Part shown: positions 11,961-30,191 of the stretch, in pieces
Numbering within the stretch: position 1 is the stretch's first letter
How the letters are laid out: each line of letters starts with the position of its first letter
Source: a virus
Virus record (IMG/VR): IMGVR_UViG_3300028895_000202
Coordinates: 1 to 64,000 of that record
Length of the DNA: 64,000 nucleotides
Reading direction: 5' to 3' (one strand)
Translations under genes and position numbers: made by a program
The notes under the pieces: generated by a model
Seen by the model: the letters and a program-made list of their open reading frames with translations, nothing else
Told to the model about the DNA's origin: nothing
The model's database searches: none

Positions 11961-14900
11961 ATGGCCGACATCGCTACACTATCAATCAAGATTGACACTG
12001 CCGATATCAAGCGCGCAAAAGGCGAGCTTACGGCACTCGAAGCGTCAGTCAAGGCCATCTCAAAGGCACGCATCAATCCGGGTACGGCGCTGGGTATCCG
12101 CGACATCGTCGACGCCATGTCGCAGCTGGACAAGGTAAACTACGTCCGTGTGCGGACGACGATGGCGTCAGTCTCGAACCTATCGAAGGTACTTAATTCA
12201 CTGCCAACTCGCGCACTGCCTTCTAGGGCTATAGCGTCACTAGCAACATCACTGCAAGAGCTTAGTCGCGTGGATGGGGCTAAGCTAACTAGAGTTACTA
12301 CAGCTATTGCGGCCCTTGGGCCAGCGATGGACACCCTGAAGGGGGCGGCTGGACTGCGTCCAGCCACTCTTGGCAACCTTGCGAAATCGCTGGTAGCTAT
12401 CAGCGCGATAAACGGTGGGCAGGTAGCGGAGTCAGCCAAAGGTGTGCGAGCACTGGGTGCGGCACTTCGATCGATGCCTGCCAAGGCTGGTACGTCCCCC
12501 GCCGCTATTAGCAACCTTGCGAAGTCGCTGGAAGCTATCAGCAAGATAAACGGCGGGAAGGTAGCGGAGTCATCCAAGGGCATGCGCGCCCTTGGTGCCG
12601 CGCTACAAGCGATGCCTGCCAAGGCTGGTACGTCCCCCGCCGCTATTAGTAACCTTGCGAAGTCGCTGGCGGCCATTAGCAGGATAAATGGTGGGAAGGT
12701 AACAGAAGCGGCTGCAGGTATGCGAGCCCTTAGTGCCGCGCTACAAGCGATGCCAACTAAGGTCGGCACGTCACCAACCGCTATAAGCAACCTTTCAAAG
12801 GCGCTACGGCAGATCTCAAACTTGAGCGGCCAAAAGCTGGTTGACATTTCCAACTCGATGCGTCAGCTTGGGCAGGGCCTCTCGGCCTTCTCCGGCGTAA
12901 GGTTCCGCCCGAAGTCGATATCAAACTTCGCCGTGGCACTAACCGAACTGTCACGGGTCGACGCAGCCAAGCTGAGGGCTGTAGCCAAAGCACTTAGCCA
13001 GATAGAGCGTACTGGAACGGGTAGAAGCATAGAAGCGCTGACAAAGTCCGCCCTTCAGGCAGCCCGCTCCATAGAGCAACTCCAGGTGCGGACTAAGCGT
13101 CTTGAATCAAGGCTTAATCCTGCCAGAGTAACTGCGTTTGGCCGTGCGTTGTCATTCGTCGGTAGTGCTGCTGGGGGCGCTGTCGGTGCTATTCGACGCA
13201 CGGTCTCTTCCATCACTACCCTAGGAGCCAAGATGCGTACATTCAGGGCCAACATCCTCAATGTTGGCGCTGGATTCTTGGTGTTCTCATTTCTGCAAAG
13301 ATCTGTTGTTCAACTCATCAAGCCGATTCGTGAGTTCGAGACAGCACTGGTCAACATCTCGAAGACGACCAACCTGACGGGTAGAGACCTACAAGACCTC
13401 TCAGACGAACTCCTATCCATTGCCAGCAACTCGGTTGCCACCACAGACCAGCTGCTGCAAGTGGCCGGTATCGCTGGTCAGCTTGGCGTTAAGGGAAGGA
13501 GCGACATCCTAAAGTTCGCAGACACGGTAACCAGACTTGCCGACGCTGCACCGTCTCTCCGAGGTAGCTTCGAGCAGACCGCTCTACAACTGGCTCGTGT
13601 GCTCAACATCACTGGTGAGGGCATCGGCAAGGTTGACAGGCTGGCCTCTACCGTACTGAAGCTGGGTAACAACTTCGAGGCGCTGGAAAGCACCATCCTC
13701 AAAACTACGATTGAGGTTGCTGCTGCGTCGGCAGCCTTCGGTGTTACCTCCGCTGACGCTGCGGCTCTTGCAACCGCACTTGCCCGAGTTAGTGTACCGC
13801 CGGAACGTGGCCGAACGGCAATCATCACCACGATGAAAGCCATCTCTGACGCTCTGAGAAGTACTGGTGAGGATGCCCAGAACTTCAATCAGATAATCGG
13901 AACTGGAAGCGTCAAGGCCCTGCAAGAACTATTCAAGAACGATCCGACCGAAGCCTTCCTGAAGCTGGTAGAGGGTCTACGCGCTGTCCGAGACGGAGGC
14001 GGGGACGTTACGGCAACGCTGAACAGGCTTGGCCTGAACTCCATTCGTACTCAAACGTCTATCCTGGCACTGCTGGGTAGCACCGAGAAGTTCCGAAGGG
14101 CACTCTCCCTTGCACGGGAAGAGTTCGCCACAACGGGCGATGAACTGGAACGAGTAACCAGGCTCGCTAGTGATCGTCTTGACGCTGCGTTTGTGCGACT
14201 GACGAACACGTTTAGAGGGCTCCTAATCGAGTTCTCGAAGACATCTGGGCTTGAAACTGCCCTGCGCGATTCACTTGAACTGATCAGTGACATAGCCAGG
14301 TCTATCAGCCCAAACACCGTCGATCAAGTCGGACAGTTCGCTGGTAACGTCAAGCGGCTTCGCGACCAGCTTCTTGGAGTCAAGAAGGATGATGCGCTGA
14401 ACTCTGCGTTCTCAAACCTTGAGAACTACAGGGAACTTATAGGTAAGATTGGCGACTTTGTAAGGTCAGTCAGTGGCGGTGTCATAACCACGGCAGCGTC
14501 TTTCGCCAGCTTGTTCCTCGCCAGCCGAGCACTCAGCATCGGACTGAGCACGGTACTGTCACCACTTGGCCTAATCTCACTTGGCATCACTGGAGCGGTA
14601 GGACTCCTGGACAAGTTTGGAGACAAGGCACTCCGTGTCGGTGATCAGTTTGTCAGGCTTCGCGATGTAGTCAAGGCAATCGGCCAAGAATCCGCGAGAC
14701 GCCTCGAATCGTTCATCCAGGTTGTGGGTGAGATCGCCTCAAAGCAATCCGCGCTAACAAGCGCAGTCCTGGAAGACATCCTCAGCATAGACGAGAGTAA
14801 GCCGGGGGATGTATTCGACAGGATACTCGATGCGGCGGATATGGCTGTGGAGTACATCGGCGATCAATGGGTGACCACGCTTGCCAAGGTAGAGACGAGC

Positions 14901-17591
14901 TTGCTTAAGATAGGCAACTCCATGCGATCAATAACTACCGCAGTGCTTGAGACCACTGCCGCGTACCTCGATCTGCTGAAACCAGTGATAGCGTGGGCCC
15001 AGCTAGTTGGAGAAGAGATAGCTACTGCGGTAACGGACCTACTTGACGGCCAGGGGTCAGCTGTGCGTACCATAAACAGTGCCGCACGGATGTCTGGCAC
15101 TGTCAGTGAAGGCTACGCGGAGCAGCTAAGGGGAGAAATCTCCAGCCTTATTGCTGAACAAGAACGGCTCAAGTCCGCGCTGGACGCATTCAAGGAGAGG
15201 GGGGAGATTGATGAGTCCCTGGGGCGGGAGGTCATAGGAAGAGAGAGGTTTGACGAGCTTGGTGGTATGAAGCGTATCACTTATCAATACGAGCTTCATG
15301 ACAAGTGGCAAGAGGCTATCTACGAGAAGCGAAAGAAGATGGCGGAGCTTACCGCCATCGAGTTGCGTCTAACGACTAATCGTCTTAACGCGGAGTCAGC
15401 TGCGGCAGACAAGCGTATAGAGGATCTTAAGAAGGCTGCCTCCGGAGAGGCGTTCGACCAGTACAACAGCAGATTTGAGAAGACTGGTGAGGCAGTACGC
15501 AAAGCGATTAATTCTGTATTGACCTCGCTTGGTGCAACTGAGTCCTCTACAGACAAGCTGCTAGACGGCTTTATCGACGGTGTCCGTGAACTGGCTATAG
15601 CCGCTTTTGAATCGAGCAAGCCTGTAAACGACGCTGCCCAGGGTGTAACCAACTATGTCGAGGCTGTAAACGGCTCTGCAAAGGCTGTAACCGACTATGT
15701 TCAGCTGGTGCAAGACGCATCTGACGCCGCAGAGGACTTCGGCGGGACAAGCCTCGGGCTCGCCCCAGAAGAGGCTGAGAAGGTAGATGATATTCTAAGG
15801 AGGCTTACTCGACAGTATGAAGACTTGCGTAGAGAGACGGTCGGTGTATTCGATCCAGCGAGGGCCGAGATAGAGCAACTGTCAGCTACGACAAGTCGCG
15901 AAGTAGAAGACATCAGCCGCGAGTTGAACCAAATTGGTGCGACCCCCGAGCAACTTGCCAACTTTGATAGCCTGAAGGAAAAGCTAAAGGAGGCTCGCGA
16001 GGTTCTACTACAGACGCGGAGAGACAGGGCTGCCGAAGACCTGATTCGTACCCTAAGCCGTGGGGCAGAGGATGCCAAGCGCTCGATGGAAGCTGCGTCG
16101 TCCTACGTGCCAAGCCTAGGCCAGATGGCTGACGAGCAGGCTCGCTATGCACGGGAGGTCGAGGACACGGTTCGTCAGATGCGCGAGCTTGGTATGTCAC
16201 AAGAAGACATAAAGATCTCGAAAGCCTTTGCGTTTGATATTGGTCCATTCAAGGGCATAAAAGAAGCAATAGCTGGCATCCGTGTAGCAACAGCCCGAGC
16301 CGTGGAGGATGCCATTCGGCTAGGCGCCAGTCTGCAAGAGATCGAACAAATCGAACTCAAGGGCAAGCTGCAGGAAGATCTGGCTGTGATTGAAGCGGCG
16401 CAGAGCGCGGCAAGCGGGTTCGGCTCTGCAATCACCGGGGCAATCCGCAGCGGTATTGAGGAGGGCAAGAAGTTCAGGGAGGTCATCGGTGACGTGATGC
16501 TGGCCGCGTCCGAGAAGATCGTCACTGAGATCGCAATCAGGCCTATCGAGAACATCCTGGACAACGCCCTGGCGGGCCTTTTCGAGGGCATGATTGCAAA
16601 CCAAGTGACGATCACGGCGACTAACGTCACGCTGGCTGGTGCTGGGCTTGCCGCTGGTGCTCCTGGTGCGGTTGGTGCTGCTGGTGCGGTTGGTGCTCCT
16701 GGCGCTGGGGTATACGGCCCGCCGCTACCGGGGGTATACGGCCCGCCGCTACCGCCCGCCACCCCATCAGTTGATGCGGTAATAGGCGAAACCCTGCCAG
16801 GGGCAGCAGCAGGCGCCATTGATACAAGCGGCATCGAGGCCATGAATGCGGCTGCCGCCAATGGCGCTACGCAAGTCGCTGACATGGCTACCGCAGCGAC
16901 CGCAGCCAGTGTAGCTACGTCAGGTCAAGAGGCTGCGGCCCTACTCGGCACTGTGGCCCAGCAGGCTGAATCAACTGAAGAAACCAAAGCTGCATTTATT
17001 GAGCAGGCAGAGGCTCAGGCTAGTCAGCAGGCAGCAGCTGCGGCGGTGACGCTGGCCGCCGCGATGAAAGCGGCAGCTGCTTCGGCGGTGATCAGCGCCA
17101 AGGGAAACATCTTCGGCGCGAGCGGTGTGGTTAAGGCGTTTGCGAAGGGAGGTGTTCCGGGAGGAGGCCTGCGCGGCAGGTTCGGTGACATGCTCACCAA
17201 TGGGCCCGTGGCATTCCCATTAGGGCTGGCCGGTGAGGCTGGTCCGGAAGCCATTGTGCCTGTAAGCCGTCGTGGCGGGTCGTTCACCATGGGGACCGCC
17301 GACGGTAGGCAAATACCGCTGACGAGAGACACGAGCGGAAACCTTGTGGCCGATCTGGCTGGCATGTCTAGTAGAAATACAAGGAAGTTCGCGAGCGGGG
17401 CCATCCTTGCCAATGGCAGGCAAATGGAGCCACACGGGGGTTCAACTTCCGGTTATAATGGTGGCACTGTAGTAAATCAGACCATCAACATTCAAACCAA
17501 GGATGCAGATAGCTTCCGAAGGTCTGAGCGTCAGGTTCAGTCCCAGCTACGCAAGTCTGTATCGCGAGCTAACAACGTCGGTCAAGGATGA
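11961..17591 (+). CDS. Tail tape measure protein
   Basis: 1876 residues, the longest gene of the window, as expected for the tail-length ruler. Residues about 131-300 contain three to four 46-residue repeats (NLAKSL.AIS.INGG.VAES..G.RALGAAL..MPAKAGTSP). Residues about 455-650 carry the TP901-type minor tail core (FETALVNISKTTNLTG, LSDELLSIASNS, TTDQLLQVAGIAGQLG). Residues about 1560-1600 are Gly/Ala/Pro-rich, including two GVYGPPLP copies near 1583. The C-terminus has the family's usual FAKGGVPGGGL...GLAGEAGPEAIVPVSR ending (near 1740-1770). Hydrophobic stretches in the middle may help DNA passage through the host membrane. It overlaps the next gene by 4 bases. Confidence 0.9.
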   Translation: MADIATLSIKIDTADIKRAKGELTALEASVKAISKARINPGTALGIRDIVDAMSQLDKVNYVRVRTTMASVSNLSKVLNSLPTRALPSRAIASLATSLQELSRVDGAKLTRVTTAIAALGPAMDTLKGAAGLRPATLGNLAKSLVAISAINGGQVAESAKGVRALGAALRSMPAKAGTSPAAISNLAKSLEAISKINGGKVAESSKGMRALGAALQAMPAKAGTSPAAISNLAKSLAAISRINGGKVTEAAAGMRALSAALQAMPTKVGTSPTAISNLSKALRQISNLSGQKLVDISNSMRQLGQGLSAFSGVRFRPKSISNFAVALTELSRVDAAKLRAVAKALSQIERTGTGRSIEALTKSALQAARSIEQLQVRTKRLESRLNPARVTAFGRALSFVGSAAGGAVGAIRRTVSSITTLGAKMRTFRANILNVGAGFLVFSFLQRSVVQLIKPIREFETALVNISKTTNLTGRDLQDLSDELLSIASNSVATTDQLLQVAGIAGQLGVKGRSDILKFADTVTRLADAAPSLRGSFEQTALQLARVLNITGEGIGKVDRLASTVLKLGNNFEALESTILKTTIEVAAASAAFGVTSADAAALATALARVSVPPERGRTAIITTMKAISDALRSTGEDAQNFNQIIGTGSVKALQELFKNDPTEAFLKLVEGLRAVRDGGGDVTATLNRLGLNSIRTQTSILALLGSTEKFRRALSLAREEFATTGDELERVTRLASDRLDAAFVRLTNTFRGLLIEFSKTSGLETALRDSLELISDIARSISPNTVDQVGQFAGNVKRLRDQLLGVKKDDALNSAFSNLENYRELIGKIGDFVRSVSGGVITTAASFASLFLASRALSIGLSTVLSPLGLISLGITGAVGLLDKFGDKALRVGDQFVRLRDVVKAIGQESARRLESFIQVVGEIASKQSALTSAVLEDILSIDESKPGDVFDRILDAADMAVEYIGDQWVTTLAKVETSLLKIGNSMRSITTAVLETTAAYLDLLKPVIAWAQLVGEEIATAVTDLLDGQGSAVRTINSAARMSGTVSEGYAEQLRGEISSLIAEQERLKSALDAFKERGEIDESLGREVIGRERFDELGGMKRITYQYELHDKWQEAIYEKRKKMAELTAIELRLTTNRLNAESAAADKRIEDLKKAASGEAFDQYNSRFEKTGEAVRKAINSVLTSLGATESSTDKLLDGFIDGVRELAIAAFESSKPVNDAAQGVTNYVEAVNGSAKAVTDYVQLVQDASDAAEDFGGTSLGLAPEEAEKVDDILRRLTRQYEDLRRETVGVFDPARAEIEQLSATTSREVEDISRELNQIGATPEQLANFDSLKEKLKEAREVLLQTRRDRAAEDLIRTLSRGAEDAKRSMEAASSYVPSLGQMADEQARYAREVEDTVRQMRELGMSQEDIKISKAFAFDIGPFKGIKEAIAGIRVATARAVEDAIRLGASLQEIEQIELKGKLQEDLAVIEAAQSAASGFGSAITGAIRSGIEEGKKFREVIGDVMLAASEKIVTEIAIRPIENILDNALAGLFEGMIANQVTITATNVTLAGAGLAAGAPGAVGAAGAVGAPGAGVYGPPLPGVYGPPLPPATPSVDAVIGETLPGAAAGAIDTSGIEAMNAAAANGATQVADMATAATAASVATSGQEAAALLGTVAQQAESTEETKAAFIEQAEAQASQQAAAAAVTLAAAMKAAAASAVISAKGNIFGASGVVKAFAKGGVPGGGLRGRFGDMLTNGPVAFPLGLAGEAGPEAIVPVSRRGGSFTMGTADGRQIPLTRDTSGNLVADLAGMSSRNTRKFASGAILANGRQMEPHGGSTSGYNGGTVVNQTINIQTKDADSFRRSERQVQSQLRKSVSRANNVGQG
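12363..12850 (+). repeat. 138-bp tandem repeats inside tape measure gene
   Basis: About three and a half tandem copies of a 138-bp (46-codon) unit. Copies at 12480, 12618 and 12756 begin with the same CCAAGGCTGGTACGTC-type block; the first two are almost identical at base level, the third has diverged. This is recent in-frame amplification. Confidence 0.8.
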
Positions 17592-18601
17592 GTTTCCACG
17601 AATCAGCAACCTTCCCCGAGAAGATAGCAGCGGGCTCAGAGCGCATCAGCCGGTTTAATACTCGCGTATTTACGCACGATAACGGTGCATCTACGCGAAT
17701 CGCTGGATGGAGCCAGCCTCTGTTGTCGTTTGACGTGTCTCGCGGGCTTGATTTCCAGGAAGACGTAGCTGAGCTAGAGAGATTCTGGAGGGCGAGGCGC
17801 GGTGCTACGTTTGGTTTTCGGTTCAAGGACTGGTGGGATTACCACACCAATCCCACCGGGACTACCCATAACCCGGGTGACTACACCGATTCTACGGACC
17901 AGCTAACTCACACCAAGGGCCGTCTTCTGCCAGTCGAGGACTCGCTATCCGGCGGGCTATACTACGCGGCACAGCTGTGTAAACTGTATGACGATGCCGG
18001 TGTTGAGGAATACCGTGTTATCAACAAGCCAAGATCCGGCGCCGTCATCTCTGGCCTCACCCACAGCGGTATCGATACGACTACTGGAATCGTCGGCACT
18101 CCGAACGGCTGGAATGAGGATAGCATACTGAACGCCAAGTGGAGGGGCCAGTTCGACGTCCCGTGTCACTTCTCGGCCAATATTGATAACCAGGGCCTAT
18201 CACTGAGCGCCCAGGATTTCAACGCTAACTCCGTTCCGTCGGTTGAGATCTACGAGATCCGGGCTGAGTTTGAAACGCCTTCTGCCGCTTATGCTGGTGG
18301 TTCTCGCGACTTTGGTGTATCGGCAAACACGCTGCTGACTACATCTTCGGCAAACGGAAGGTTCCAGGTATTCCGCCCGTCAAGCGGCAGCACTATAACG
18401 GTCGTGGTTCTATCGCTATCCAAAGAGCCAGCCGGTGAAGGCATTCTGGTGTTGCACAACGCTGGCGAGGGCACACTCAGCGTACGCACGAGTTACGTCG
18501 ATGGATCGCCAACTTCTGTCGCGTCTGGCGAGACTGCCAGGATCCACATCGTCCGCGACTATGTGTCTGGAAGCTACGAGTCCTTCACGACGGTGTCCTG
18601 A
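17588..18601 (+). CDS. Distal tail protein, DUF2460 family (GTA gp12-like)
   Basis: 337 residues. It opens MSFHESATFPEKIAAGS, then GWSQPLLSFDVSRGLDF, LERFWRARRGATFGFRFKDW and a WDYHTNP segment: the signature order of DUF2460 (TIGR02217) proteins. The family's usual length is about 210, so the C-terminal about 110 residues (from about 225, YEIRAEFETPSAAYAGG...) are an extra beta-rich domain. It forms the distal tail ring in gene transfer agents and related siphophages. ATGA overlap with the tape measure gene. Confidence 0.8.
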   Translation: MSFHESATFPEKIAAGSERISRFNTRVFTHDNGASTRIAGWSQPLLSFDVSRGLDFQEDVAELERFWRARRGATFGFRFKDWWDYHTNPTGTTHNPGDYTDSTDQLTHTKGRLLPVEDSLSGGLYYAAQLCKLYDDAGVEEYRVINKPRSGAVISGLTHSGIDTTTGIVGTPNGWNEDSILNAKWRGQFDVPCHFSANIDNQGLSLSAQDFNANSVPSVEIYEIRAEFETPSAAYAGGSRDFGVSANTLLTTSSANGRFQVFRPSSGSTITVVVLSLSKEPAGEGILVLHNAGEGTLSVRTSYVDGSPTSVASGETARIHIVRDYVSGSYESFTTVS

Positions 18602-18604
18602 CAC

Positions 18605-21600
18605 ATGAGCCTTTCACAGAGACTACTCTACGGGAACTCTCAGTCAGAGAGCCCTACGCTGGCATCTTCGGCCATCACCGTTGCTGGCAACACGACGATC
18701 CTGGTTGTGCGTGAGGGGTCGTCCGTATCAACGCTCACCATTACCCTACCAGCGGTAAGACAGTCCCTAGTTGGCAGGCTCATCCGAATTCTCCGCAGCC
18801 CGGCTAACGCAACCACAGTAGTTATCAAGGACGAGTCGGGCTCAACACTACAGACAATCACATCTGCCGGGTCAGTAGACAACATCGAGGTCTACCTGAC
18901 TGACTACAACGGAGGCACGGGGTCCTGGGAGATCGTAGTTCCATCCACGACTTCCGTAACTCGACGCCAACCGCTGAACGTCATCATGATTAACTATGAT
19001 GACTGCGGCAGGCACCAACTTCCCACCTATTACGATCTGAACTCCTGGCCCGCAGGTTACTACCACCTGTATCCGCAGATGCCGTGGACTCAGGACCGTT
19101 GTGGAACCGTTTCTGATCAAGGTACTGAGGCCGGTACGCGGTTCGTGAACGCCCGCGTGTCTGCGCGCTGTACGCCGACACGGCAGTGCCTCGCCACCGG
19201 CAGGCAGCCGCATGTCTCGCAAACGCACCCATGGGGAAGTCGTGTGGGCAACATCCCTCAGCAGGGAGGCGTTACGCCAGAGTTCAGGACGATTAAGGGT
19301 ATAACACGCGACCAAAACCCATTCCCTGTTGTTGCCAGGAACGCTGGGGCACCGCACTACTTCTTCCACATCGGAAAGATCCACGCTACTGAGCACGAGA
19401 TTCGCGATGACGACAGTGACTATGTCTCTGTAGACGGGTTTGGTGTAGCCGACTTCACAAAGGCAGACGAGATCCGCACCAACTTCAAGCAGGTCATTAC
19501 CGACTTTGGGTTTGACGAGTCATACAAGCTAGAACTCGCCAAGCCCGATGGCGCGGAGACAGAGCCTTACAAGGGCTACCGTGGAACGTGGAGTGGAGAT
19601 GGAGCTGACACCACAACTCGCGACGCCCGCACCTTCTCCGTACACCACATCTACAGTGACACCGCCACTGCCGCTACAGGCTGGTCGGTAAACGGTACGG
19701 CGCGGCTTGGATCGAAGGTACTGCCAATCGCAGGAGGTAGCGGCCAGTTCAAGAAAGGTGACCGTATCCGCGTGTCAGGCGTCAATGGCGAGCTAATCGT
19801 CTGGGAGGATAGTGGGGCCTCACCTACGCAGATCACGCTATATCAGGGCTTGCTAGAAACGCCACGTGATGGTGCATCCATCACAGTCGTATTCCACATT
19901 GTTGGTGACGATGTGGAGAGTGGTGAGCTATACGGCGGCAACGAGCTTGGCGGTATGCGTCGCGCAGGCTTTACCCAGCAGCGTGACCCTGGGCAAGGTG
20001 GGGCATCGCTCATCCTGGCTACGGGAGGAACGCTAACAGAACGTCCGGACATACTGACAAGCAGCATAACAGTACACGGCACGGAGACCAGCACGAGTAC
20101 CGACTACGGTGAGGATCCATACTACTTCACCTACGAGCTTACCAAGATCAAGGAGTGCATCGACGCCTGCGCCAGCCGCAACAAGCCGTTCTTCATCGAG
20201 TGGTGGACTCACGCACCACACGGCACCCTGCCAGCTATCGAGTCAAACATAGGCCCCAACTGGAGCCGTTGTGGTGTAGCCGCTGACGGGACGACGTACT
20301 TCTTCACTGACGCTCAACACTCGGGTGGCGTAACGCCAGAGCAGTCTGTCGCGACTGGTATGCACCGTGAAGCTGACAGCGTGACTGGGCGCACGTTCAG
20401 CGCGGCAGAAGTTCAGGCAATGTGCCGTAGGTATCTACGTACCTTCAAGGACGAGGTGGTCGATGGTATCGACGTCAGCGATCCGCAGCATCCCCTGATC
20501 CAACAGGGCATCTACGCTACAGCTTCACTCGACGGGCGGATACGTATCAGTAACCTGTACAACAGGGATAAGCGATACACCGTAAGCGGTAACACAGCCA
20601 GCACCGAACCTCAGAACTTCGGGCCAGGATACGACGCTGACGGCAACTGGGACAACAGCAGCCCATATGGTCCGCTTGGGCAGATCAGCGTCGCCTACAG
20701 GCGGATGATCGCGAACATGGAGTCCATCGATCGCGGCTGCCAAATGCTCGATGACTGGCTTCAGCTGAACTACCCAGAGGTTCACGCCAACACGCTGTGG
20801 GTAATCCACGCCGATAACGGGCCGACAGAGTCAGACGCATCTCCACGCGCCGATTCCTGGGCATCCCATTACGACAACAGCGGAACTTCGATCTCTATCA
20901 CAGGTGGTGGAGGCCCATCGCTCCGCACCCGTGGGGATCTTGTGCCAGCGAGGTGGACTACCTTGCGAGATTCGGAAGGGGACACGGCTGTCTGGGACAA
21001 CTACAGCGCCTTGCCGCCCTGCGTCGGTGGGCGCGACGCGCTTACGGATCAGTTCTTTGGGTGGACTTCAGGCGTCGATAGCCCGGACATAACCTATCAC
21101 AACCCCGATCACTCCAAGAACCAAGTCAACGACGACGGCATTCTGACGCACCTGAGTGTCTGGGGTTACAACCTGCACGAGGGCGGCAACGACGCTACCG
21201 CGTTCATCGATGCATGTGACTTCTACAAGTTCGTGCTGGACATCATAGACCCGGGGTCATACGACGTCGCACTCTCTCCCGAGGGGAAGTACTACGCACA
21301 GGATTCGGTGAGCTTCGCGCCATCGCTAGCTGACCCATCCTTCGTCCCAAAGACCTCTACTCTTCATCAGATCTTTATTCCATCTGGAGGTTCTGAAGGA
21401 AACCTGCGTCGTATCGAGAGATGCGTCATTGATGTAGCATCAAATTACAAGTTGATGCGTAGGTACAACGAGACCCTAACTGATGCATACTTCGGTGGAG
21501 TGGATAACAACGGCAGTCCACTACAGGGCGTCAAGTACTATAGGATCGCTGGTGGAACAATGCAGTTCCAGCTATCCGAACCAACAATAGACGTTGGGCC

Positions 21601-22024
21601 TGTCGAAGACGGAGAACCCGCACGTGCCGTAGCGCCCGTGCCGGAACCGATTGACGGTGATACGGTTTGGGACATCGTCAGCACTTACGGCGTCATCTAC
21701 GTCCGTCTTATTGCGGAGGCCGATGATACAACTGGCGCAATACTCGACCTGTGGAGAGATGCCGCTCTGACAACACCAGTAACGGCAGCTGGATTCACGG
21801 CCACAAGTTGGACAGAGATAAGTACGGCTGGGAACTGGGAGGTTAACTTCAAGCTATCCCGCGAGGAGTCCTGGATCTTTGATCCGGACAATACGGGCTG
21901 GTTCCTCTACAACCTCAACGACGACCCTCGTGAGACTACGAACCTATACGGGGCTGACGGATACGATAACGTGGTCTCCCTTATGCGTAACCTGTATCTG
22001 GACAAGGTCGGAAACCTGGACTGA
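18605..22024 (+). CDS. Tail-associated sulfatase (formylglycine-type, CxPTR)
   Basis: 1139 residues. Residues 1-115 are a beta-rich domain likely to dock on the tail. From about 125 the sulfatase alkaline-phosphatase-like fold follows with its landmarks in order: NVIMINYDDCG (metal ligands D132, D133), ARCTPTRQCLATGRQPH with catalytic C189-T-P-T-R193 and G199-R200, HIGKIH (K258, H260), KPFFIEWWTHAPHG (H536, H539), an RRMIANMESIDRGCQMLDDWL-type helix near 700-719, LWVIHADNGP (D737, N738), and a C-terminal LYNLNDDPRETTNL. These are the hallmarks of S1-type arylsulfatases, in which the Cys is converted to formylglycine. Residues about 325-445 are an inserted beta domain. It lies between the DUF2460 and DUF2163 tail genes and is coupled to both (ATG 18605; TGATG at 22024), so it is almost certainly a virion component. 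Likely role: desulfating host surface polysaccharide on adsorption. No maturation enzyme is seen in the window. Confidence 0.88.
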   Translation: MSLSQRLLYGNSQSESPTLASSAITVAGNTTILVVREGSSVSTLTITLPAVRQSLVGRLIRILRSPANATTVVIKDESGSTLQTITSAGSVDNIEVYLTDYNGGTGSWEIVVPSTTSVTRRQPLNVIMINYDDCGRHQLPTYYDLNSWPAGYYHLYPQMPWTQDRCGTVSDQGTEAGTRFVNARVSARCTPTRQCLATGRQPHVSQTHPWGSRVGNIPQQGGVTPEFRTIKGITRDQNPFPVVARNAGAPHYFFHIGKIHATEHEIRDDDSDYVSVDGFGVADFTKADEIRTNFKQVITDFGFDESYKLELAKPDGAETEPYKGYRGTWSGDGADTTTRDARTFSVHHIYSDTATAATGWSVNGTARLGSKVLPIAGGSGQFKKGDRIRVSGVNGELIVWEDSGASPTQITLYQGLLETPRDGASITVVFHIVGDDVESGELYGGNELGGMRRAGFTQQRDPGQGGASLILATGGTLTERPDILTSSITVHGTETSTSTDYGEDPYYFTYELTKIKECIDACASRNKPFFIEWWTHAPHGTLPAIESNIGPNWSRCGVAADGTTYFFTDAQHSGGVTPEQSVATGMHREADSVTGRTFSAAEVQAMCRRYLRTFKDEVVDGIDVSDPQHPLIQQGIYATASLDGRIRISNLYNRDKRYTVSGNTASTEPQNFGPGYDADGNWDNSSPYGPLGQISVAYRRMIANMESIDRGCQMLDDWLQLNYPEVHANTLWVIHADNGPTESDASPRADSWASHYDNSGTSISITGGGGPSLRTRGDLVPARWTTLRDSEGDTAVWDNYSALPPCVGGRDALTDQFFGWTSGVDSPDITYHNPDHSKNQVNDDGILTHLSVWGYNLHEGGNDATAFIDACDFYKFVLDIIDPGSYDVALSPEGKYYAQDSVSFAPSLADPSFVPKTSTLHQIFIPSGGSEGNLRRIERCVIDVASNYKLMRRYNETLTDAYFGGVDNNGSPLQGVKYYRIAGGTMQFQLSEPTIDVGPVEDGEPARAVAPVPEPIDGDTVWDIVSTYGVIYVRLIAEADDTTGAILDLWRDAALTTPVTAAGFTATSWTEISTAGNWEVNFKLSREESWIFDPDNTGWFLYNLNDDPRETTNLYGADGYDNVVSLMRNLYLDKVGNLD

Positions 22025-23034
22025 TGGCTGACCGTATTGCTCGTAGCGTCGTAGACGTGGTGACCCGCAGAGCGGTCACTTATAGCACAGCCTGGAGGGT
22101 TGAGCGCCGCGATGGCGTGATCATCGCTATATGCAACCACTCCTCCGACGTGACGTTGCCTGACGGATACAGGTATCGTGCAGCCTTCGGCGGGGCTACG
22201 TCAGCAGTGCGACGCGAAGAGGGTATGGGTAACTCAGACGTTGAGGTGCAGAGCATCGTCAATAGCGCGTTTATCAGCTACACAGACCTTCAGCAAGGCA
22301 AATACGATGACGCTACCGTAGTCGTAAGCATCTTCGATGCTGATAGGCCATACGCCGGTATCCTTGAGTCGAGAAGGTATCTGCTAAGGCCGAGTTCATA
22401 TGGTGAGCTTGGCTGGAAGGCTACGCTTGTCGGTCTTCACGAAACTACCAGAACCGAGGTTGGTCAAACGCTATCGCCAACCTGTGTTCATGTCCTAGGG
22501 GCTGGGTACGATACTGGCAATCCCTACATGTGTACGGTTAATCTGGCAAGGCATCCAGCCACCGTCTACGGGACAGTCGTAAGTCCAGCGTCTATTCCAG
22601 GTGAATTCACGGCTGCTAGGGCGGATGGGTATTTTGGCCGAGCGTATGTGATCGTTGACGGGGCAACACTTAACGATGCTGATGGCAACGTGCTGACAAC
22701 TGTTGTGTCAGACTTCGCTAACGGGACACTCTATTTCATGGATGGAGCTAACGTCGGAGCATCCGGGTACATCCGAGAGCATGGCAATCCTGGCGAACCA
22801 GGAACATACACAGACATTGGTGCCGGAGATTTCGCCGTAAAGCTGCTGAACCCAATGCGCGCACCTATAGTGGGGGGCGAGCGCGTTCAGCTACGGCTTG
22901 GCTGCAATAAGCGTCTAGGCAATACGTCGTCAGACGGTCACTGCTACAACAGGTTCCAGAACACGCACCAGTTCAAGGGCGACCCAATCATCCCCGGAAC
23001 CGCACCGGCCCTTAAAGTGTCCGCCGTGAACTGA
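22024..23034 (+). CDS. Tail hub protein, DUF2163 family (GTA gp13-like)
   Basis: 336 residues; ATG 22024 overlaps the sulfatase stop. It shows WRVERRDGVIIAICNHSSDV (the family's early W-x-hydrophobic block), GMGNSDVEVQSIV, DDATVVVSIFDAD, the GELGWKATLVGL block and the C-terminal Cys-rich end CNKRLGNTSSDGHCYNRFQN followed by FKGDPIIPG. The Cys pair and FxGxPxIPG ending are diagnostic of DUF2163/TIGR02218 proteins of gene transfer agents and related phages, where it forms the tail hub. The start is decided by the overlap. Confidence 0.82.
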   Translation: MADRIARSVVDVVTRRAVTYSTAWRVERRDGVIIAICNHSSDVTLPDGYRYRAAFGGATSAVRREEGMGNSDVEVQSIVNSAFISYTDLQQGKYDDATVVVSIFDADRPYAGILESRRYLLRPSSYGELGWKATLVGLHETTRTEVGQTLSPTCVHVLGAGYDTGNPYMCTVNLARHPATVYGTVVSPASIPGEFTAARADGYFGRAYVIVDGATLNDADGNVLTTVVSDFANGTLYFMDGANVGASGYIREHGNPGEPGTYTDIGAGDFAVKLLNPMRAPIVGGERVQLRLGCNKRLGNTSSDGHCYNRFQNTHQFKGDPIIPGTAPALKVSAVN

Positions 23035-23459
23035 TGGATTACGGCAAGCAAGCACTCAGGATCGCCAGGGATCTCATCGGAACCCGCGCCGCCCTTACGT
23101 CAACGGACAAACGTAAGGGACTCTGCTGCTATGGCCTCATCTGGCACTGCCATCCACACCTACAAGACCGACTGCCCGAAGTAGACGACGTGTACAGCCT
23201 TGGTCACAAGCGCCAGATACTTGAGATCACGAAGTATGCTGACCGAGTGAGTCGCCCGAAGCCAGGATGCGTAGCTGCCTTTAACAACAACATGCTTGGC
23301 AGAAACGGTCTATCGGAACTGCATCTAGCTGTTGTCTCCTCTGTAAGCCCGGACAGGGTAATACACGCGGATATGGGGAGTAGGAAGATAAGTGAGGATA
23401 CCCTTACCGACTTGTTCTTACGGGGTCTGTCTCTGATAGGGTATTGGAGGGCTAAGTAG
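23034..23459 (+). CDS. NlpC/P60-like tail peptidase (GTA gp14-like)
   Basis: 141 residues, ATG overlapping the previous stop (TGATG). Cys-containing helix start GLCCYGLIWHCH (C31/C32) and a later LHLAVVS (H97) fit the Cys-His catalytic core of NlpC/P60 peptidases carried at siphovirus tail tips, and VIHADMGSRK (H110) matches the strand that usually follows. The typical G-x-D-C nucleophile motif is modified here to GLCC, so activity is likely but not certain. It would locally open peptidoglycan during DNA entry. The order DUF2460, sulfatase, DUF2163, peptidase, tip protein makes the sulfatase the only extra gene in an otherwise standard module. Confidence 0.7.
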   Translation: MDYGKQALRIARDLIGTRAALTSTDKRKGLCCYGLIWHCHPHLQDRLPEVDDVYSLGHKRQILEITKYADRVSRPKPGCVAAFNNNMLGRNGLSELHLAVVSSVSPDRVIHADMGSRKISEDTLTDLFLRGLSLIGYWRAK

Positions 23460-23460
23460 T

Positions 23461-26400
23461 ATGGTATCACTCATCTTCGCTGCCGCAGTTGCTGGTGGTG
23501 CGATTACAAGCACTACAGCAATCATTATCGGTGGTATATTGGCTGCTGTAGCTGATGCAGCCCTAGCCCAGGCCTTCTTTAAGGATCGCACTGAAGATCC
23601 AATCGCCGGGGATACTGAGCGTGGCAAGCAAATCAAGACCAGTGCCTCCGCAGAGGGGCAGGGCCTGACATACGTGCTTGGTCGAGCCCGCGTCCCGATG
23701 CGCCTGATAGCGTCGCAGAACGGATGGAGGCTCCAGTCTGGTGATCCAGATAAGCATAACATCAACTTCGCCGTAGACGTATCCAATGGTCCCGTAAAAA
23801 CGCGAGTAGTAAAGTCATCAACTACTGGGTATGACGAGACCGGGTTCATTGAGGCTGTATACGCGGAAGGGCAGCCGATCTACCTACAGTCGGGAGAAGT
23901 CACGTATTCTGGTCCAGACCTGTACTTCCTATCGTGCCCGAGACAAGTAGAGGCCGGGTCGAATCGTAATGACATTGATTCCTACACAAGCAGTATTTTA
24001 GGGACGAATATACAAAGGTATAAGACTAGATATGATGCTTCCGTGTCTCAAGACGAGTTGGCATATCCATGGCCCACAATACAGCGCCCGATTGTAATTG
24101 TATCACCGCCCTGGGGACCTTCCCTCAGCAGCCTTCTGCCGGTTGGCGAGGAGGTCACATTTTCCGGCGTACCAGTAGCAACATACACACCTAGCTCTGC
24201 GGATCCATCCGGCGTAACTAGCATAACATTCGATCCGAACATAGACGGGCAATTCTTTGGAAGAAGCGTTGACCAGCGCGTGCCGTCCGGTTCATCCGCC
24301 GACTTTTACGACGACGATACGAATTTATCTACGCAAGGGCATGACCAAGACGCGCCGGGGTATCGGCTTACGTACCGCGTCGCATATGTGTCTGATGGTT
24401 TCAATACATCGGTAGTCGGGACGTTGCCATTGACAGTTTTCTCAAGCGTAGCAGACATGACGGGGTGGGAAGTTGCTTCGCTAGAACTATACCCTCACCG
24501 TAACGTGCGTGGTAACCAAGACGACTACGGTGATTGGAAATATGACATTAAAAAGCGCGGCATTAGATGCACTAGGCCAAGCGGTGTCCCGATACTAGCG
24601 ACAGACATTACAAGTAAATCACTGTTTTGTTGCACCGCATCAGACGGCCAAACATCTGTATATCCGGGATTTGGCCGTGACATAGTAATATCCGCTGGTA
24701 ACTCAACACTAGGCTACTACGGTGGCACCACGGGGGACTTTCGTGCAGTAGATGCACTTGTAGTTCCAGGCATTCCATTGAATAGAACAGTAACTGCTAG
24801 TTACTTCGATCCCTACGGTAATATAAAAACGGGTAAGGGTATTCAGCTAAATCAAAATTACGATAACACAGGGTTCCACAATGTTCTAATAAAAGAGTCT
24901 GGTATTAGTTACTATTTACCTGTCTTCACACCACCCCCGTCAACCACTAACCCGGCATATCTCGACTCATCAGACTACGATCTAGATGATGATGGAGTAA
25001 CCCATCATAGCAATGACCTTGCTGAGTTCGTAGCTAGGTTCCCGCAGGGTGTAGTCCCAAGTAACTATGCGGAACACTACCCCCTAGCATTCGGCGTAGT
25101 ACAGCATACGTCGTACCCATCGGGAGCGTCTACCGTCAAAAAGGGTATGGAAGGCACACTATCTACGACGCTCGGGACAAGCGGTACGCAGCCTTTTGCC
25201 GCCATGTATCAGATTTCTGGGTCTGATACTACTCCTACCTCTGATGTACGTAACCCGAGCACGCCCGTAGGAGCAGTTCTAGCTGAGCTATTTGGGCAGC
25301 CGTCTGCGTCTGGGTCTACTAATCCGAACATCTCATCCTGGGTGCCAAACCGCGTTGGTCGAGCCTGGGTTGTGTTCAAGGATATGGACCTCGTCAACTT
25401 TGGCGACAGGATACCGAACATGGAGGCCGTTGTCGTGGAGCGAGAAGACCTGGATCTGGCAACAGCCATCGGAGCCCTGCTGGAGCGACACGGCATCAAA
25501 CCCTGGCAGTATGACGTGTCAGAGGTTACCGGCGAGCTAGAGGGGCTTGCCGTCGTGGAGCCCGTAGGCTCCATCGAGACTATCCAGGCATTGATGGAAG
25601 TGTATCGCATTGATGCTCGCGAAGTTGACGGCAAACTCCACTTCTCAATGCGAGAAGACGCACCAACTTACGCACTAGAATACGGCGAGCTTGGGGCTAA
25701 CGACTCAAACGAACGTGTAGAGCCCATAAACGTAACCGTTCTACCGACGTCCGCTGCCCCAAAAGTAGTTCAGGTCAAGTTCATGGAAGATGGCGCTGGA
25801 CTCATCATCAACGCCGTCACGGTCACATCTGACGGGTCTGGTACTGTATTCGACAGGACAAAGACAGAGAAGCTACAGTACCCGTTTGCCATGACCCGTC
25901 GGCGCGCAAACCTCGCCGCGCTACAAGAGCTTGTAGACAGACAACTGGAGCTTGAGCAGTACTCACTTAACATACCTCCAACGCGACTTGACATCCGTGA
26001 CAGCGACTGCTTCAGCACCGTGGTAGATGCTGACGACTCTAGCTTCGAGGTGGTGGGTAGGATTACAGAGATTGAACGTGGTGCTAACTTCTACCCCGTA
26101 GCCAGGGCGACGAAGGTTAACCCGAGTGCTAAGGCCCTACCGATCGATCTAATACCGGAGGAAGGGGCGTCGGGTACATTCGGTGGTCAGGGTGATTCTG
26201 GCGGCGGGCAGCCACCAACAGATCAGGCCTATACCCCACACCCAGTGTTAGCTTCGTGGATTAACGTTGGTTACGTAAGCGGTAGCACTAACTCCACGGA
26301 AATTCATGACACGAATGTGCCGCAGGCCACCGTGGCGTGGCTAAACCCAGGTGGAATAAGCCCCAACCAACAACTGCTTGAGACAGACGACGACCAAGAA

Positions 26401-27510
26401 CGAGCTATAGTAGCCTCATCAGTAATTGAGAATTCCATACTGGGACTAGATCTTAGCTACGAGATAGTGGCAGCTAACCTCTACGGAAGTGCTAGTGCAG
26501 ACCTAGCACAAAAACTAGGACTTGACCCGACCGACTACGCCGCAGTGTCTGCGCCGACAAACTACCTTAGCAGGCATGAGAGCATCACAATCGAGGATCC
26601 GACCGGCTCGTTCCGCGATTTGTATGATGGCCCGGCGTATGATAACAGTGCCCCATCTGCCGCCGAAGCCTCCCTTCATCAAAGGTATCTGGTCATAGGT
26701 ACGGAAATCATAAGCTGGTCAAAGTGGGAGATATCTGGCAGTCAAGTAACTCTGAGCGGACTGCAGCGCGGTATCGGCAACACGAACGCGCCAACTACGC
26801 TGGTGTATACGTCGGACGGAGACATAATCGACTATACGACAGAGCCACTATTCATCAATCCGCTAAGCACGATACCACGTGCCTATATCGATGCTGGACA
26901 AAGGGTTATGTTTACCGTCCCGCAAAGCGTACCGTCGGAAGAACTCCGGTTTGAGTCAGCTACTGGCGGTCAAGGTGGACTTGTCGATTTCCCATACTAC
27001 AATGAGGGTGTAGCGATAACAGTCGGTGGTGATACGTTACCTACCCGAATCTATTACGACTCCACCTTCACGCGGAGACCGCCTGTACTGGTCAGGCCAG
27101 CCAAATACTTCCAATACGGGGCGGAATATGGCTGCTCTGCCACTATCGCCCTGACACTGAGGTCTTCAGGCGGAGGACTGGAGATAGGTTGTTGGCCCCC
27201 ATCCTTCGTGCTGAACCAGTTGGATAGTTTCCCAGGTGTCACCGGAGTACTGCGCGACTCTGCAAATGCTCCTATAGCCATTTTCCGGATAACCGGCACG
27301 TACGCCAACCCAACAGTAAGCATCACTTCTGGGTCTGAAACTGGCCTTCAAGTAGAGGCCCGTGGTGTCGGTGAGTCATCTACAGATGGCACGATTGCCA
27401 TAAAACACGTCATTTCGATTATAGTAAAGGGAGTCAGCCAGGAATTCAGCCTCATGCTACGCGAGACAGAGCAGAACTATGGGGCATCCTGCGGCCTAAT
27501 CGTAACCTGA
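23461..27510 (+). CDS. Tail tip / host-specificity protein (GTA gp15-like, Phage-tail_3)
   Basis: 1349 residues. The N-terminus has a hydrophobic segment (VSLIFAAAVAGGAITSTTAI, continuing to about residue 45), then a GQGLTYVLGRARVPMRL block common to tip proteins that begin with a YGR-V motif. The middle (about 640-910) carries the conserved part: DLATAIGALLERHG, SIETIQALMEVYRIDAREVDG and PVARATKVNP. The C-terminal third is beta-rich and probably contacts receptors. Part of the gene (about 24.0-25.2 kb) is richer in A/T and in AUA and AGA codons than the neighbours, as in recently exchanged host-range segments. It starts 1 base after the peptidase stop codon. Confidence 0.78.
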   Translation: MVSLIFAAAVAGGAITSTTAIIIGGILAAVADAALAQAFFKDRTEDPIAGDTERGKQIKTSASAEGQGLTYVLGRARVPMRLIASQNGWRLQSGDPDKHNINFAVDVSNGPVKTRVVKSSTTGYDETGFIEAVYAEGQPIYLQSGEVTYSGPDLYFLSCPRQVEAGSNRNDIDSYTSSILGTNIQRYKTRYDASVSQDELAYPWPTIQRPIVIVSPPWGPSLSSLLPVGEEVTFSGVPVATYTPSSADPSGVTSITFDPNIDGQFFGRSVDQRVPSGSSADFYDDDTNLSTQGHDQDAPGYRLTYRVAYVSDGFNTSVVGTLPLTVFSSVADMTGWEVASLELYPHRNVRGNQDDYGDWKYDIKKRGIRCTRPSGVPILATDITSKSLFCCTASDGQTSVYPGFGRDIVISAGNSTLGYYGGTTGDFRAVDALVVPGIPLNRTVTASYFDPYGNIKTGKGIQLNQNYDNTGFHNVLIKESGISYYLPVFTPPPSTTNPAYLDSSDYDLDDDGVTHHSNDLAEFVARFPQGVVPSNYAEHYPLAFGVVQHTSYPSGASTVKKGMEGTLSTTLGTSGTQPFAAMYQISGSDTTPTSDVRNPSTPVGAVLAELFGQPSASGSTNPNISSWVPNRVGRAWVVFKDMDLVNFGDRIPNMEAVVVEREDLDLATAIGALLERHGIKPWQYDVSEVTGELEGLAVVEPVGSIETIQALMEVYRIDAREVDGKLHFSMREDAPTYALEYGELGANDSNERVEPINVTVLPTSAAPKVVQVKFMEDGAGLIINAVTVTSDGSGTVFDRTKTEKLQYPFAMTRRRANLAALQELVDRQLELEQYSLNIPPTRLDIRDSDCFSTVVDADDSSFEVVGRITEIERGANFYPVARATKVNPSAKALPIDLIPEEGASGTFGGQGDSGGGQPPTDQAYTPHPVLASWINVGYVSGSTNSTEIHDTNVPQATVAWLNPGGISPNQQLLETDDDQERAIVASSVIENSILGLDLSYEIVAANLYGSASADLAQKLGLDPTDYAAVSAPTNYLSRHESITIEDPTGSFRDLYDGPAYDNSAPSAAEASLHQRYLVIGTEIISWSKWEISGSQVTLSGLQRGIGNTNAPTTLVYTSDGDIIDYTTEPLFINPLSTIPRAYIDAGQRVMFTVPQSVPSEELRFESATGGQGGLVDFPYYNEGVAITVGGDTLPTRIYYDSTFTRRPPVLVRPAKYFQYGAEYGCSATIALTLRSSGGGLEIGCWPPSFVLNQLDSFPGVTGVLRDSANAPIAIFRITGTYANPTVSITSGSETGLQVEARGVGESSTDGTIAIKHVISIIVKGVSQEFSLMLRETEQNYGASCGLIVT

Positions 27511-27527: not shown

Positions 27528-30191
27528 ATGTCCAAATTCCTGACTAGGCACACAGAGGGCTCCACCGGGCAAGCACTGATTGCTAACGAGAACTACCTTC
27601 TGATGGAGGTTCTCTCGGGCGCGAACCCCGTGAAGGGGATTGTGCTGAACTACAACATCCCTGGTATATCTACCTCTAATGCCGCAGACAAGGTGCTGAC
27701 CTACGACACGTCAGATGGTGCGACTGCGGTCACGCCTGCGGAAGGCGATGCGTATATCGTAGCTAACTGGGCAACGGAGATCAGGTTTAGGAACGATGCC
27801 CCCGGTTCGCTTATCTCGGGGGCTGCTGGTACTCCACTTGATGCCTCAGGCAACCCGCTCGCCAATGCTGTTGCCGCTAATGGTATAGACTTGGCAACAT
27901 GTCTACCCTCCGACTGGCGTGCAGCTGACAATTACCTGCCGCTCCCCGGCGATCTCATGATCTACACGGGTGCAGAGTGGCTGTGCTTCACTCCACAAGA
28001 CGGGTGGACCGTAACGATGGCGCAGGATGCACGGGAGACCGACATCTGCTACAACCCAGTCCTCAACGTAAAGGCCGACGGTACGCTGGTCGCGGTAGAT
28101 GGCGACGGGGATACGCACTACTCGAATGTAAACGAGATAGGCTCGCCAAGCCGTGGTATGACGCTTACATACAAGACGGCAAAGACGTTCAATGGTGCTA
28201 CCCAGGGCTACGAGGACTGGCTTTTCCTTACGCCAAAGGATCAGGCAGCAACGTCACAACCGACAGTTGTGAACGTAGCAACGACCGCGCACGCCCCGAG
28301 TGCCACGGCCCCAACCACAACTGGAACCATCAGCGGGCGCTGGACCAGGGATGCAGTTGTCACCGTCAACGCTGGGAACACTCCGGCTGACGGTGCTAAC
28401 TACGCCATTAGTGCCATGACAGCTGACGGTGACGGCGTTAGCTGGAACATAACCGTGGACTCTGGGGCTACTGTAGGTGTCGGTGACATAATATCTTATG
28501 CTAGGTCGGATGCGACTGCGTATCTCACAGGTACTCTCGGTTGGACCTTGACTGTTCTAACCGCAAGCAATACCAGTGGTGATAACTGGAACATCACCGT
28601 GATGCCATCTCGTGCAAACTTCAATTCATATGACGGTTCCCCAATTAGTCAGGCAAGCCTGAGTGCCCTTGGGTGGGATGAGACAGCCACACCACGTAGG
28701 GGTGGATCGCTGAAGTTCTCCAATAACGACCTCGGACTGTGTGATACGGGTACGTTCTGGTACATGGTGCCTAACACAAGCGACGGAGACGTGTACCAGT
28801 GTAAGAACTTCTACGCCAAGCAGCGTACCTGGAAGAGCATCACCAGCGCATCCGGTGGCAGCGGGGCCGTTGACAATGCCATCAAAACGGTCACAGCCGA
28901 CGCAGGTAGCACGTTCAATGCCGTTGGTGAGGATACTTTCAACATACGTGGAAGCGGTGCATCAGGCATAACCACTAGCATAACTAGCGATAACCTTACT
29001 ATCTCACAATCAGCTGCGTCTGCCAGTTCTTCCGGGTATATGTCAGTCGCAGAGTACCGGCTAAACAAGGCTGTACAGTACTGGCTGGACGATCCTGTAC
29101 TGAAGGGCTTTGGGACAACAGACCCGCCCTCTTCGCCATCAGAGGGTGACAAGTACCTTGTCGGATCGCCACCTACGGGAGTCTGGGCGTCCGGAGGATA
29201 CGCGCTAAAAGTAGTCGTGTATGTCGGCTCAACCTGGGTCATCGTAGCAGACGTTACCCACGGGCTAACCGTATGTCTTGGAAATGAGACCGTTCCAGAG
29301 GGCCTTTTTAGTACGTATCCGGCTGAGTTCGCTGGCAAGACACTTGTGTACGACTCCGTCGCGCAGGCGTTCTACCCGACTACACCCGTTACGACAGCTA
29401 CGCCACACTTCACGGGTAAGTACCAGTATGTGGGGTCAACTGCGGCACCGGTATACGCGAAGTGCTTCGAGGAGGGGACACTTGAGACGACCACCGGCAC
29501 CAAATTCGCGATTCGTGATAGCGATACAGTAACCACCGACGGGAACCTAAAAGTTGTCACGGCAGCGCCCGGTACGTATGGTTACGACATCCTAGGCGTC
29601 AGACACGCGATATGGGACACAACTACTGAGGAATTCTTCCTGATATTTGACAACCAGTCGCTTCGTAACACCTTCTTTAACCCGGGTAATGATCAAAGCG
29701 GCACACTTGACATAGCTTTCGACATCTCGCTAACTGTCCTAAACACATCGGCTTTATCCGAAACCGACACCCTACCCCTTGATACGAATGCGCTAGAACT
29801 AACCGCTGCACTTATATCCTTCAAGGGACTTAGTGCCTACGCTCCAGGAGGTTCTGAGGTAGGCCTGTATTGGGCCTCAGGGACGCTCACACCTACGACG
29901 GCATCATACCTTGACGCTATTTCTACACTGCAGCTTAGAGTAAACGTGATCAACCCACCAGATCACTACATACCTCATGGGCTCTCAATTAGCTCAAGTT
30001 ACCCGCGCAGCATCGACGCAACCTTTGCTCGTGGCACAATTCACTTCGCTTTGGGCGGCGTGCTTAAACTTGGTGGAAGCGAATTCGTTACGGCAGCGTT
30101 CGTGACTAACACGAATATCGTTTTGTCGTACCCAGAAATCAGCACTCCATCTTCAAAGGTATTTGCCCGTCTGGAGTACACCCCACAGTAA
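27528..30191 (+). CDS. Tail fibre-like protein with DUF2793-like segment
   Basis: 887 residues, rich in T, S, G, A and D, with long beta stretches. Residues about 520-580 contain DPPSSPSEGDKYLVGSPPTG followed by W and VVVYVGSTWVIVADVTHG, a DUF2793-type segment frequent in tail fibres. The N-terminus (MSKFLTRHTEGSTGQALIAN) has no recognised domain. Its C-terminal half differs in composition and may bind the receptor. Position after the tip protein and before the late terminator fits a fibre. No chaperone domain or enzymatic motif is seen. Confidence 0.6.
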   Translation: MSKFLTRHTEGSTGQALIANENYLLMEVLSGANPVKGIVLNYNIPGISTSNAADKVLTYDTSDGATAVTPAEGDAYIVANWATEIRFRNDAPGSLISGAAGTPLDASGNPLANAVAANGIDLATCLPSDWRAADNYLPLPGDLMIYTGAEWLCFTPQDGWTVTMAQDARETDICYNPVLNVKADGTLVAVDGDGDTHYSNVNEIGSPSRGMTLTYKTAKTFNGATQGYEDWLFLTPKDQAATSQPTVVNVATTAHAPSATAPTTTGTISGRWTRDAVVTVNAGNTPADGANYAISAMTADGDGVSWNITVDSGATVGVGDIISYARSDATAYLTGTLGWTLTVLTASNTSGDNWNITVMPSRANFNSYDGSPISQASLSALGWDETATPRRGGSLKFSNNDLGLCDTGTFWYMVPNTSDGDVYQCKNFYAKQRTWKSITSASGGSGAVDNAIKTVTADAGSTFNAVGEDTFNIRGSGASGITTSITSDNLTISQSAASASSSGYMSVAEYRLNKAVQYWLDDPVLKGFGTTDPPSSPSEGDKYLVGSPPTGVWASGGYALKVVVYVGSTWVIVADVTHGLTVCLGNETVPEGLFSTYPAEFAGKTLVYDSVAQAFYPTTPVTTATPHFTGKYQYVGSTAAPVYAKCFEEGTLETTTGTKFAIRDSDTVTTDGNLKVVTAAPGTYGYDILGVRHAIWDTTTEEFFLIFDNQSLRNTFFNPGNDQSGTLDIAFDISLTVLNTSALSETDTLPLDTNALELTAALISFKGLSAYAPGGSEVGLYWASGTLTPTTASYLDAISTLQLRVNVINPPDHYIPHGLSISSSYPRSIDATFARGTIHFALGGVLKLGGSEFVTAAFVTNTNIVLSYPEISTPSSKVFARLEYTPQ

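Follow-up and report, generated by a model that had tools for sequence, protein, structure and literature searches.

The enzymes known from phage tails cut or deacetylate capsules. The logic of such virion depolymerases and deacetylases (tail spikes, polysaccharide lyases, glycosidases), by which a tail enzyme modifies a surface polysaccharide of the host at adsorption, is also proposed here for P0001, a putative sulfatase encoded in a 64,000-base stretch of viral DNA (hereafter the window; bases 1-64000 of G000, the linear IMG/VR virus record IMGVR_UViG_3300028895_000202 of 70,929 bases). P0001 differs from those enzymes in that its predicted reaction is the hydrolysis of sulfate esters, in that a post-translational cofactor is needed, and in that it would stand between the distal ring and the hub and is not a trimeric beta-helix spike. 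The type I sulfatases (PF00884, or S1 in SulfAtlas; 1HDH, 6USS, carrageenan and mucin sulfatases) have the same ordered metal and catalytic residues and the same DPxE C-terminus, and theirs is also the core fold predicted, partly circularly, for P0001; P0001 departs from them in its low identity (about 20%), in several insertions (one of 139 amino acids, aa), in an N-terminal extension, and in being encoded in a phage tail-tip operon with no secretion context. The gene order on both sides of P0001 is that of the tail tip of RcGTA and other tips of the gene transfer agent (GTA) type, namely DUF2460, DUF2163 hub, NlpC/P60 (weakly supported in the window) and tip, with the difference that in the window the sulfatase gene, of 1139 aa, stands as an insertion between DUF2460 and the hub. 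Taken together, P0001 is probably a virion-borne type I sulfatase located at the tail tip between the DUF2460 distal-tail ring and the hub, where it would desulfate the host surface.

The reading of P0001 as a type I (formylglycine) sulfatase, divergent yet complete, is strongly supported by its sequence, because two independent profile directions and conservation at the level of single residues agree. In the first direction, a profile of bacterial sulfatases (80 loci collected, 63 of their proteins used) matched P0001 at 42.6 bits (E=1.6e-15), the matched stretches being colinear and in the order seen in sulfatases; the best of 2000 shuffles of P0001 reached 2.4 bits with the same profile, and the match is therefore not due to chance. 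In the other direction, a profile of eight viral family proteins, described below, retrieved 57 distinct PDB sequences at E<=1e-3 (best 1.3e-19), all of which are named sulfatases, one being a rhamnosidase/sulfatase module; the same profile picks out many sulfatase-like loci in one Planctomycetes and one Arenibacter genome. The signature pattern C-x-P-x-R occurs once in the window, with 0 occurrences expected. Direct searches with P0001 came back empty from 50,697 phage records, from plasmid records and from PDB sequences. Comparison with the Pfam Sulfatase profile, which an earlier note on this DNA had put forward as a check, came out mixed: PF00884 does match P0001 (E=4e-4), but at 20.2 bits the curated cut-off of 25 is not reached. 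The cut-off is passed by the viral relative P0006 (E=2e-20) and by the proteins of viral contigs G014, G016 and G011, and the lower score of P0001 is read as the result of divergence and insertions, not of non-membership.

The active site was analyzed in an alignment of P0001 with 58 bacterial sulfatases of about 20% identity to it; a three-sequence MAFFT alignment had misplaced the insertions, and this was corrected with the 58 added. The ordered motifs that the earlier note had listed are all located in the translated open reading frame at the residues it gave, with MINYDDCG at 128, CTPTR at 189-193, GKIH at 257, THAPHG at 535, HADNG at 735 and LYNLNDDPRE at 1101. The formylglycine motif, metal ligands D/D/D/N, catalytic K-x-H, histidine and second lysine that characterize type I sulfatases are thus all found (Table 1). 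The second lysine, K838, is a tenth residue that the note had overlooked; it sits in HSKNQVNDDGILTHL, is aligned with HMKGRSYEGGIRVPL of P0006, and belongs to a family segment that is aligned with KGSAYEGGVREPM of PDB entry 6uss, where it corresponds to the lysine of the sulfatase K-G-S-x-Y-E-G-G. The HEGG at 858 was considered as the sulfatase YEGG/EGG motif and rejected, as in the family alignment NDDG occupies that place after K838. Every catalytic residue is retained across the viral family at 30-42% identity, which argues for an active enzyme. P0001 could instead be a catalytically idle receptor-binding protein, its sulfatase fold serving as a lectin for sulfated glycans or staying unmatured without a host maturase; the record carries no maturase, and glycan binding without cleavage is common among tail proteins. 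An idle fold would be expected to lose some of its ten metal and catalytic residues, however, and these are invariant in the diverged viral members, including the cysteine and both lysines, which leaves this explanation unlikely.

Placement of P0001 in the tail tip is supported by the coupling of its gene to the operon, by an inserted domain of phage head type and, foremost, by relatives that stand beside tail-tip genes in two other contigs. DUF2460, the DUF2163-type hub and the Phage-tail_3 tip follow the GTA-type order in the window, and their Pfam matches, like the close junctions on both sides of the sulfatase gene (Table 1), bear out the neighbors and the coupling described in the earlier note; the gene it named NlpC/P60 is present between hub and tip, but its identity as a peptidase is weak. 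The same note had suggested a search for this order in other phages, which succeeded in part: a sulfatase is found beside tail-tip genes in G014 and G016, but a DUF2460 equivalent is not supported by hhalign. G014, a siphophage contig of 67.7 kb, encodes in succession a tape measure (PhageMin_Tail 3.5e-21), a 1381-aa protein with a C-terminal sulfatase, a 233-aa protein, a 152-aa protein and J, the central tail fibre (phrog_31 3e-68); stop and start codons overlap at both the tape measure-sulfatase and the sulfatase-233-aa junctions. In G016 the sulfatase is followed by a 233-aa protein, a 128-aa protein and J. In G016 the 233-aa protein bears a weak likeness to a hub (phrog_778 E=0.013, PF09931 E=0.038), and the same families are strong in the window hub. 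Comparison of the hub and peptidase equivalents in these two contigs by hhalign likewise gave no support, and a DUF2460-sulfatase fusion is not claimed for either.

Both of these sulfatases (L207:6835-10980, 1381 aa, in G014; L204:1-2904 in G016) have long N-terminal regions, about 760 aa in G014, which are candidate tail-docking parts. In P0001, residues 1-118 had no match among phage records and are proposed as a virion anchor, and residues 346-428 are absent in all other viral family members in the family alignment. Other family members are in terminase/portal operons. On G011 the sulfatase is encoded on the same strand as a terminase large subunit, a match to a head-tail adaptor and other genes of structural size; G001 (47 kb) is similar in layout, and both look like short-tailed phages. 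A PHROG match to a 'sulfatase-modifying factor' on G001 was rejected as the sequence is low-complexity. The contexts in G012, G013 and G015 were judged by layout alone. It is improbable that the sulfatase is a non-virion enzyme of the infected cell, auxiliary metabolic or lysis-stage, used for sulfate scavenging or for clearing of the extracellular matrix after lysis and lodged in a tail operon: sulfatases of other lineages do occur on viral contigs in varied contexts, and auxiliary genes of sulfur metabolism are known from phages according to PMC8190135, but against it stand the stop/start coupling to tail genes in the window and in G014 and G016, the extra N-terminal regions and the inserted phage-type domain, and the same tail-tip position across different tail types.

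The predicted structure of P0001, of low mean confidence, points to a sulfatase-like core. An AlphaFold2 model made with the bacterial alignment had a pTM of 0.63 and a mean pLDDT of 52, with the core at about 90 and the insertions low; its best PDB structure matches are all sulfatases, the first being the arylsulfatase of P. aeruginosa (E=1e-8, probability 1.00), and the match is partly circular because bacterial sulfatases are in the alignment. A second model from the viral relatives alone was poor (pLDDT 39), yet sulfatases again take the first 26 places among its PDB matches, led by one at E=1.3e-3. Structures of ENPP, LtaP and EptA appear lower in the fold list of this viral-only model, and C-x-P-x-R is also present in phosphonate monoester hydrolases, as would suit a relative in the alkaline phosphatase superfamily acting on phosphate or phosphonate esters (e.g., of teichoic-acid-like or phosphorylated coat polymers). 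This is very unlikely, as all PDB sequence matches of the viral profile are sulfatases, and the DPxExxNL ending and both lysines are as in S1 sulfatases; sugars are the most likely class of substrate.

The viral family is rare in the collection of viral contigs at the sensitivity used. When 2.9 million viral contigs were scanned for the sulfatase signature, about 20 proved to carry true sulfatases; P0006, encoded on G001, is 35% identical to P0001, a narrower pattern (R-V-x-A-R-C-x-P-T-R) yielded six further relatives (best phmmer E=2e-93, L181), and a third scan of these contigs with the family alignment found no others. Approximate sulfatase queries (a consensus and one like P. aeruginosa AtsA) proved too narrow for the viral contigs, with 1 match. 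The family totals seven relatives in addition to L001, which belongs to the same population as the window and repeats the DUF2460-sulfatase junction at 100% identity; scans with the two genes flanking the sulfatase retrieved only this population. One relative is compact, with 631 aa (L195:10626-12521). The tape measure at 11961-17591 differs in length from that of L001 (1876 vs 1916 aa) at internal repeats, the contigs being otherwise identical. Genome contigs scanned with peptides from P0001 yielded no relative, nor did the viral-family profile find one in 385 genomes of Alphaproteobacteria, the class of L067, at E<=1e-16 in a search run without a positive control. Most of the sulfatase matches in INPHARED come from bacterial contigs or from faecal fragments that lack annotation, and are not clearly from phages.

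In a tree that also includes 58 bacterial sulfatases and seven viral ones from outside the family, the eight family members form one clade (99/95); as the bacterial sequences are biased to the near-consensus, the clade is shown against this sample only. The closest relatives of P0001 are viral, not bacterial. P0001 pairs with L181, from an operon of the short-tailed type, and the siphophage L186 pairs with L190, so that tail types intermingle within the clade. This mixture of long-tailed and apparently short-tailed members suggests a swapped virion module, and the simplest reading is one capture, then exchange among phages as such a module. The sulfatase gene does not have the appearance of a recent import, since its GC content and its GC content at third codon positions (GC3) are inside the range of the neighbor genes. 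Sulfatases of other lineages were seen on viral contigs amid structural-looking large genes (L159:1389-2558 in G005, L153/L155 in G002, L156:7024-8382 in G003), and that of G002 is seemingly divided between the two ends of its contig, as would be seen in a circular record. An artefact, whether an assembly chimera of a bacterial sulfatase and a phage or a chance likeness of motifs, might be suspected from a single metagenomic record and a Pfam score under the cut-off, but is scarcely credible given the shuffle control, the composition of the gene, its viral nearest relatives and the junction repeated in a second contig, and was rejected.

Beyond the family, PHROG 19870 ('unknown function') matches the whole sulfatase domain of P0006 (E=4e-10) as well as the G014, G011 and G016 proteins, and P0001 weakly (E=0.02); it carries no sulfatase annotation and is apparently a group of phage sulfatases. 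The Vibrio siphophages MAR10 and R01 (Mardecavirus) resemble the window in the broad order of genes and in three proteins, the scaffold, the DNA polymerase and the major head protein (41% identity), but among the MAR10 tail-tip genes tested there is no DUF2460 or sulfatase match. As judged from sequence, the window genome is a mosaic, with head and replication genes like those of MAR10/R01. No phage or tail sulfatase was found in open-access PMC full text, a coverage outside which subscription papers and preprints lie, and the only sulfatase match in a viral structure library was a giant-virus protein at E=0.12; the view of the earlier note that no tail arylsulfatase is established thus stands in the open-access literature and the databases searched. 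The nearest reports concern genes for the formylglycine-generating enzyme (FGE) in Pseudoalteromonas phages (PMC10232697) and an 'arylsulfatase regulator' open reading frame in a Vibrio phage (PMC10473537). Identifiers of the sample did not turn up in papers. The sulfatase would be used in a place where none seems to have been described before.

Bacterial sulfatase maturases act in the cytosol. No FGE (PF03781) or radical S-adenosylmethionine gene was found on the whole G000 record, which is linear and may be incomplete; C189 would therefore be matured by the host, unless such a gene lies on the missing part, and the host probably supplies the maturase. From these data we infer presence in the virion, formylglycine formation, catalysis, a substrate and a step in infection. 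In the mechanism proposed, a cytosolic host maturase of the FGE type or of the anaerobic sulfatase-maturating enzyme (anSME) type would oxidize C189 to formylglycine during virion production, and the folded sulfatase would be built into the tail tip, probably via its N-terminal and inserted beta domains. At contact with the host it would hydrolyze sulfate esters of a sulfated surface polysaccharide, and this desulfation would expose a receptor or loosen the coat and allow the tip to reach the envelope. Several points weigh against a virion-borne desulfating enzyme: the sulfated host coat is an assumption, the family members are few and all from metagenomes, the equivalents of hub and peptidase in G014 and G016 are weak, and the mean confidence of both full-length models is low.

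Table 1. Coordinates in the window of the sulfatase gene, its domains and active-site residues, and the neighboring tail genes.
Feature	Coordinates	Strand	Evidence or remark
Probable tape measure gene, 1876 aa	11961..17591	+	Local similarity to MAR10 tape measure, E=5e-7; precedes DUF2460
DUF2460 distal-tail gene	17588..18601	+	PF09343 8e-28; ends 3 bases upstream of sulfatase ATG
Putative tail-tip sulfatase gene (P0001)	18605..22024	+	1139 aa, ATG start, no interruption; open reading frame, profile matches, active-site conservation
N-terminal beta-rich domain, residues 1-118	18605..18958	+	Precedes sulfatase core; predicted strands, modest confidence
D132, D133, metal ligands	18998..19003	+	D in 57/57 bacterial sulfatases with a residue there
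C189-T-P-T-R193, formylglycine motif	19169..19183	+	C, P and R the same in all 58 bacterial and all 8 viral sulfatases
K258, H260 (GKIH)	19376..19384	+	Invariant in bacterial and viral alignments
Inserted domain, residues 346-428	19640..19888	+	Like a domain known from the major head proteins of phages; phrog_283 E=1e-3
H539 (THAPHG)	20219..20221	+	H in 57/58 bacterial sulfatases; invariant in viral family
D737, N738, metal ligands (HADNG)	20813..20818	+	Bacterial: D invariant, 738 is N/H/Q; viral: both invariant
K838, second, sulfate-binding lysine	21116..21118	+	Invariant in the eight viral members; KGSAYEGG (PDB 6uss), HMKGRSYEGG (P0006)
LYNLNDDPRE, C-terminal sulfatase ending	21905..21934	+	SGSH_C E=0.015; stretch matched by bacterial profile
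DUF2163-type baseplate hub gene	22024..23034	+	PF09931 3e-21, PF09356 3e-12; start overlaps sulfatase stop (TGATG)
Possible cell-wall peptidase (CHAP/NlpC-like), weak	23034..23459	+	CHAP E=0.016, below cut-off
Tail tip protein (Phage-tail_3)	23461..27510	+	PF13550 8e-14; phrog_4271 2e-24
Tail fibre with DUF2793	27528..30191	+	PF10983 1e-11; phrog_7049 tail fibre 2e-6

Other features of the record were seen along the way. Two adjacent tail tube genes of unequal length (8215-9795 and 9870-11132) both match PF18906, and a similar adjacent pair is present in G014. The family A DNA polymerase at 43256-45862 has a weak uracil-DNA glycosylase (UDG) match at its N-terminus (PF03167, E=1.7e-4, residues 45-181, below cut-off) and is possibly a UDG-PolA fusion, and the SNF2-type helicase at 38383-40365 has a weak homing-endonuclease-associated Hint match in residues 75-124 (PF05203, E=4e-5, below cut-off), possibly an intein remnant or chance. 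A phage sigma-70-like factor with regions 2 and 4 is encoded at 59113-60123, and the only tRNA gene (57311-57387) is for Ile with the rare isoleucine anticodon TAT. At L005 6300-7450 (about 66300-67450 of the record), a leader-like stretch is repeated before several small open reading frames, with frames reading C-R-N-K-A-x-P-T-P-P-Q-H-R-R, and is perhaps a repeated regulatory element.

A tail sulfatase, if true, would be a new chemistry in phage entry, would point to sulfated exopolysaccharide as a barrier to phages, and would tie infection to a maturation enzyme of the host, with formylglycine carried in the virion. The wider proposal, to which we give about an even chance, is that mobile 'tail sulfatases' are exchanged between long- and short-tailed phages and desulfate the host coat at adsorption, the host maturase being an infection factor because the cell that produces a virion must also activate its enzyme. 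A function would also be on offer for the unannotated phrog_19870, along with new sulfatases for work on sulfated glycans, and some phages may remove sulfate from the coat of their host in order to infect it.

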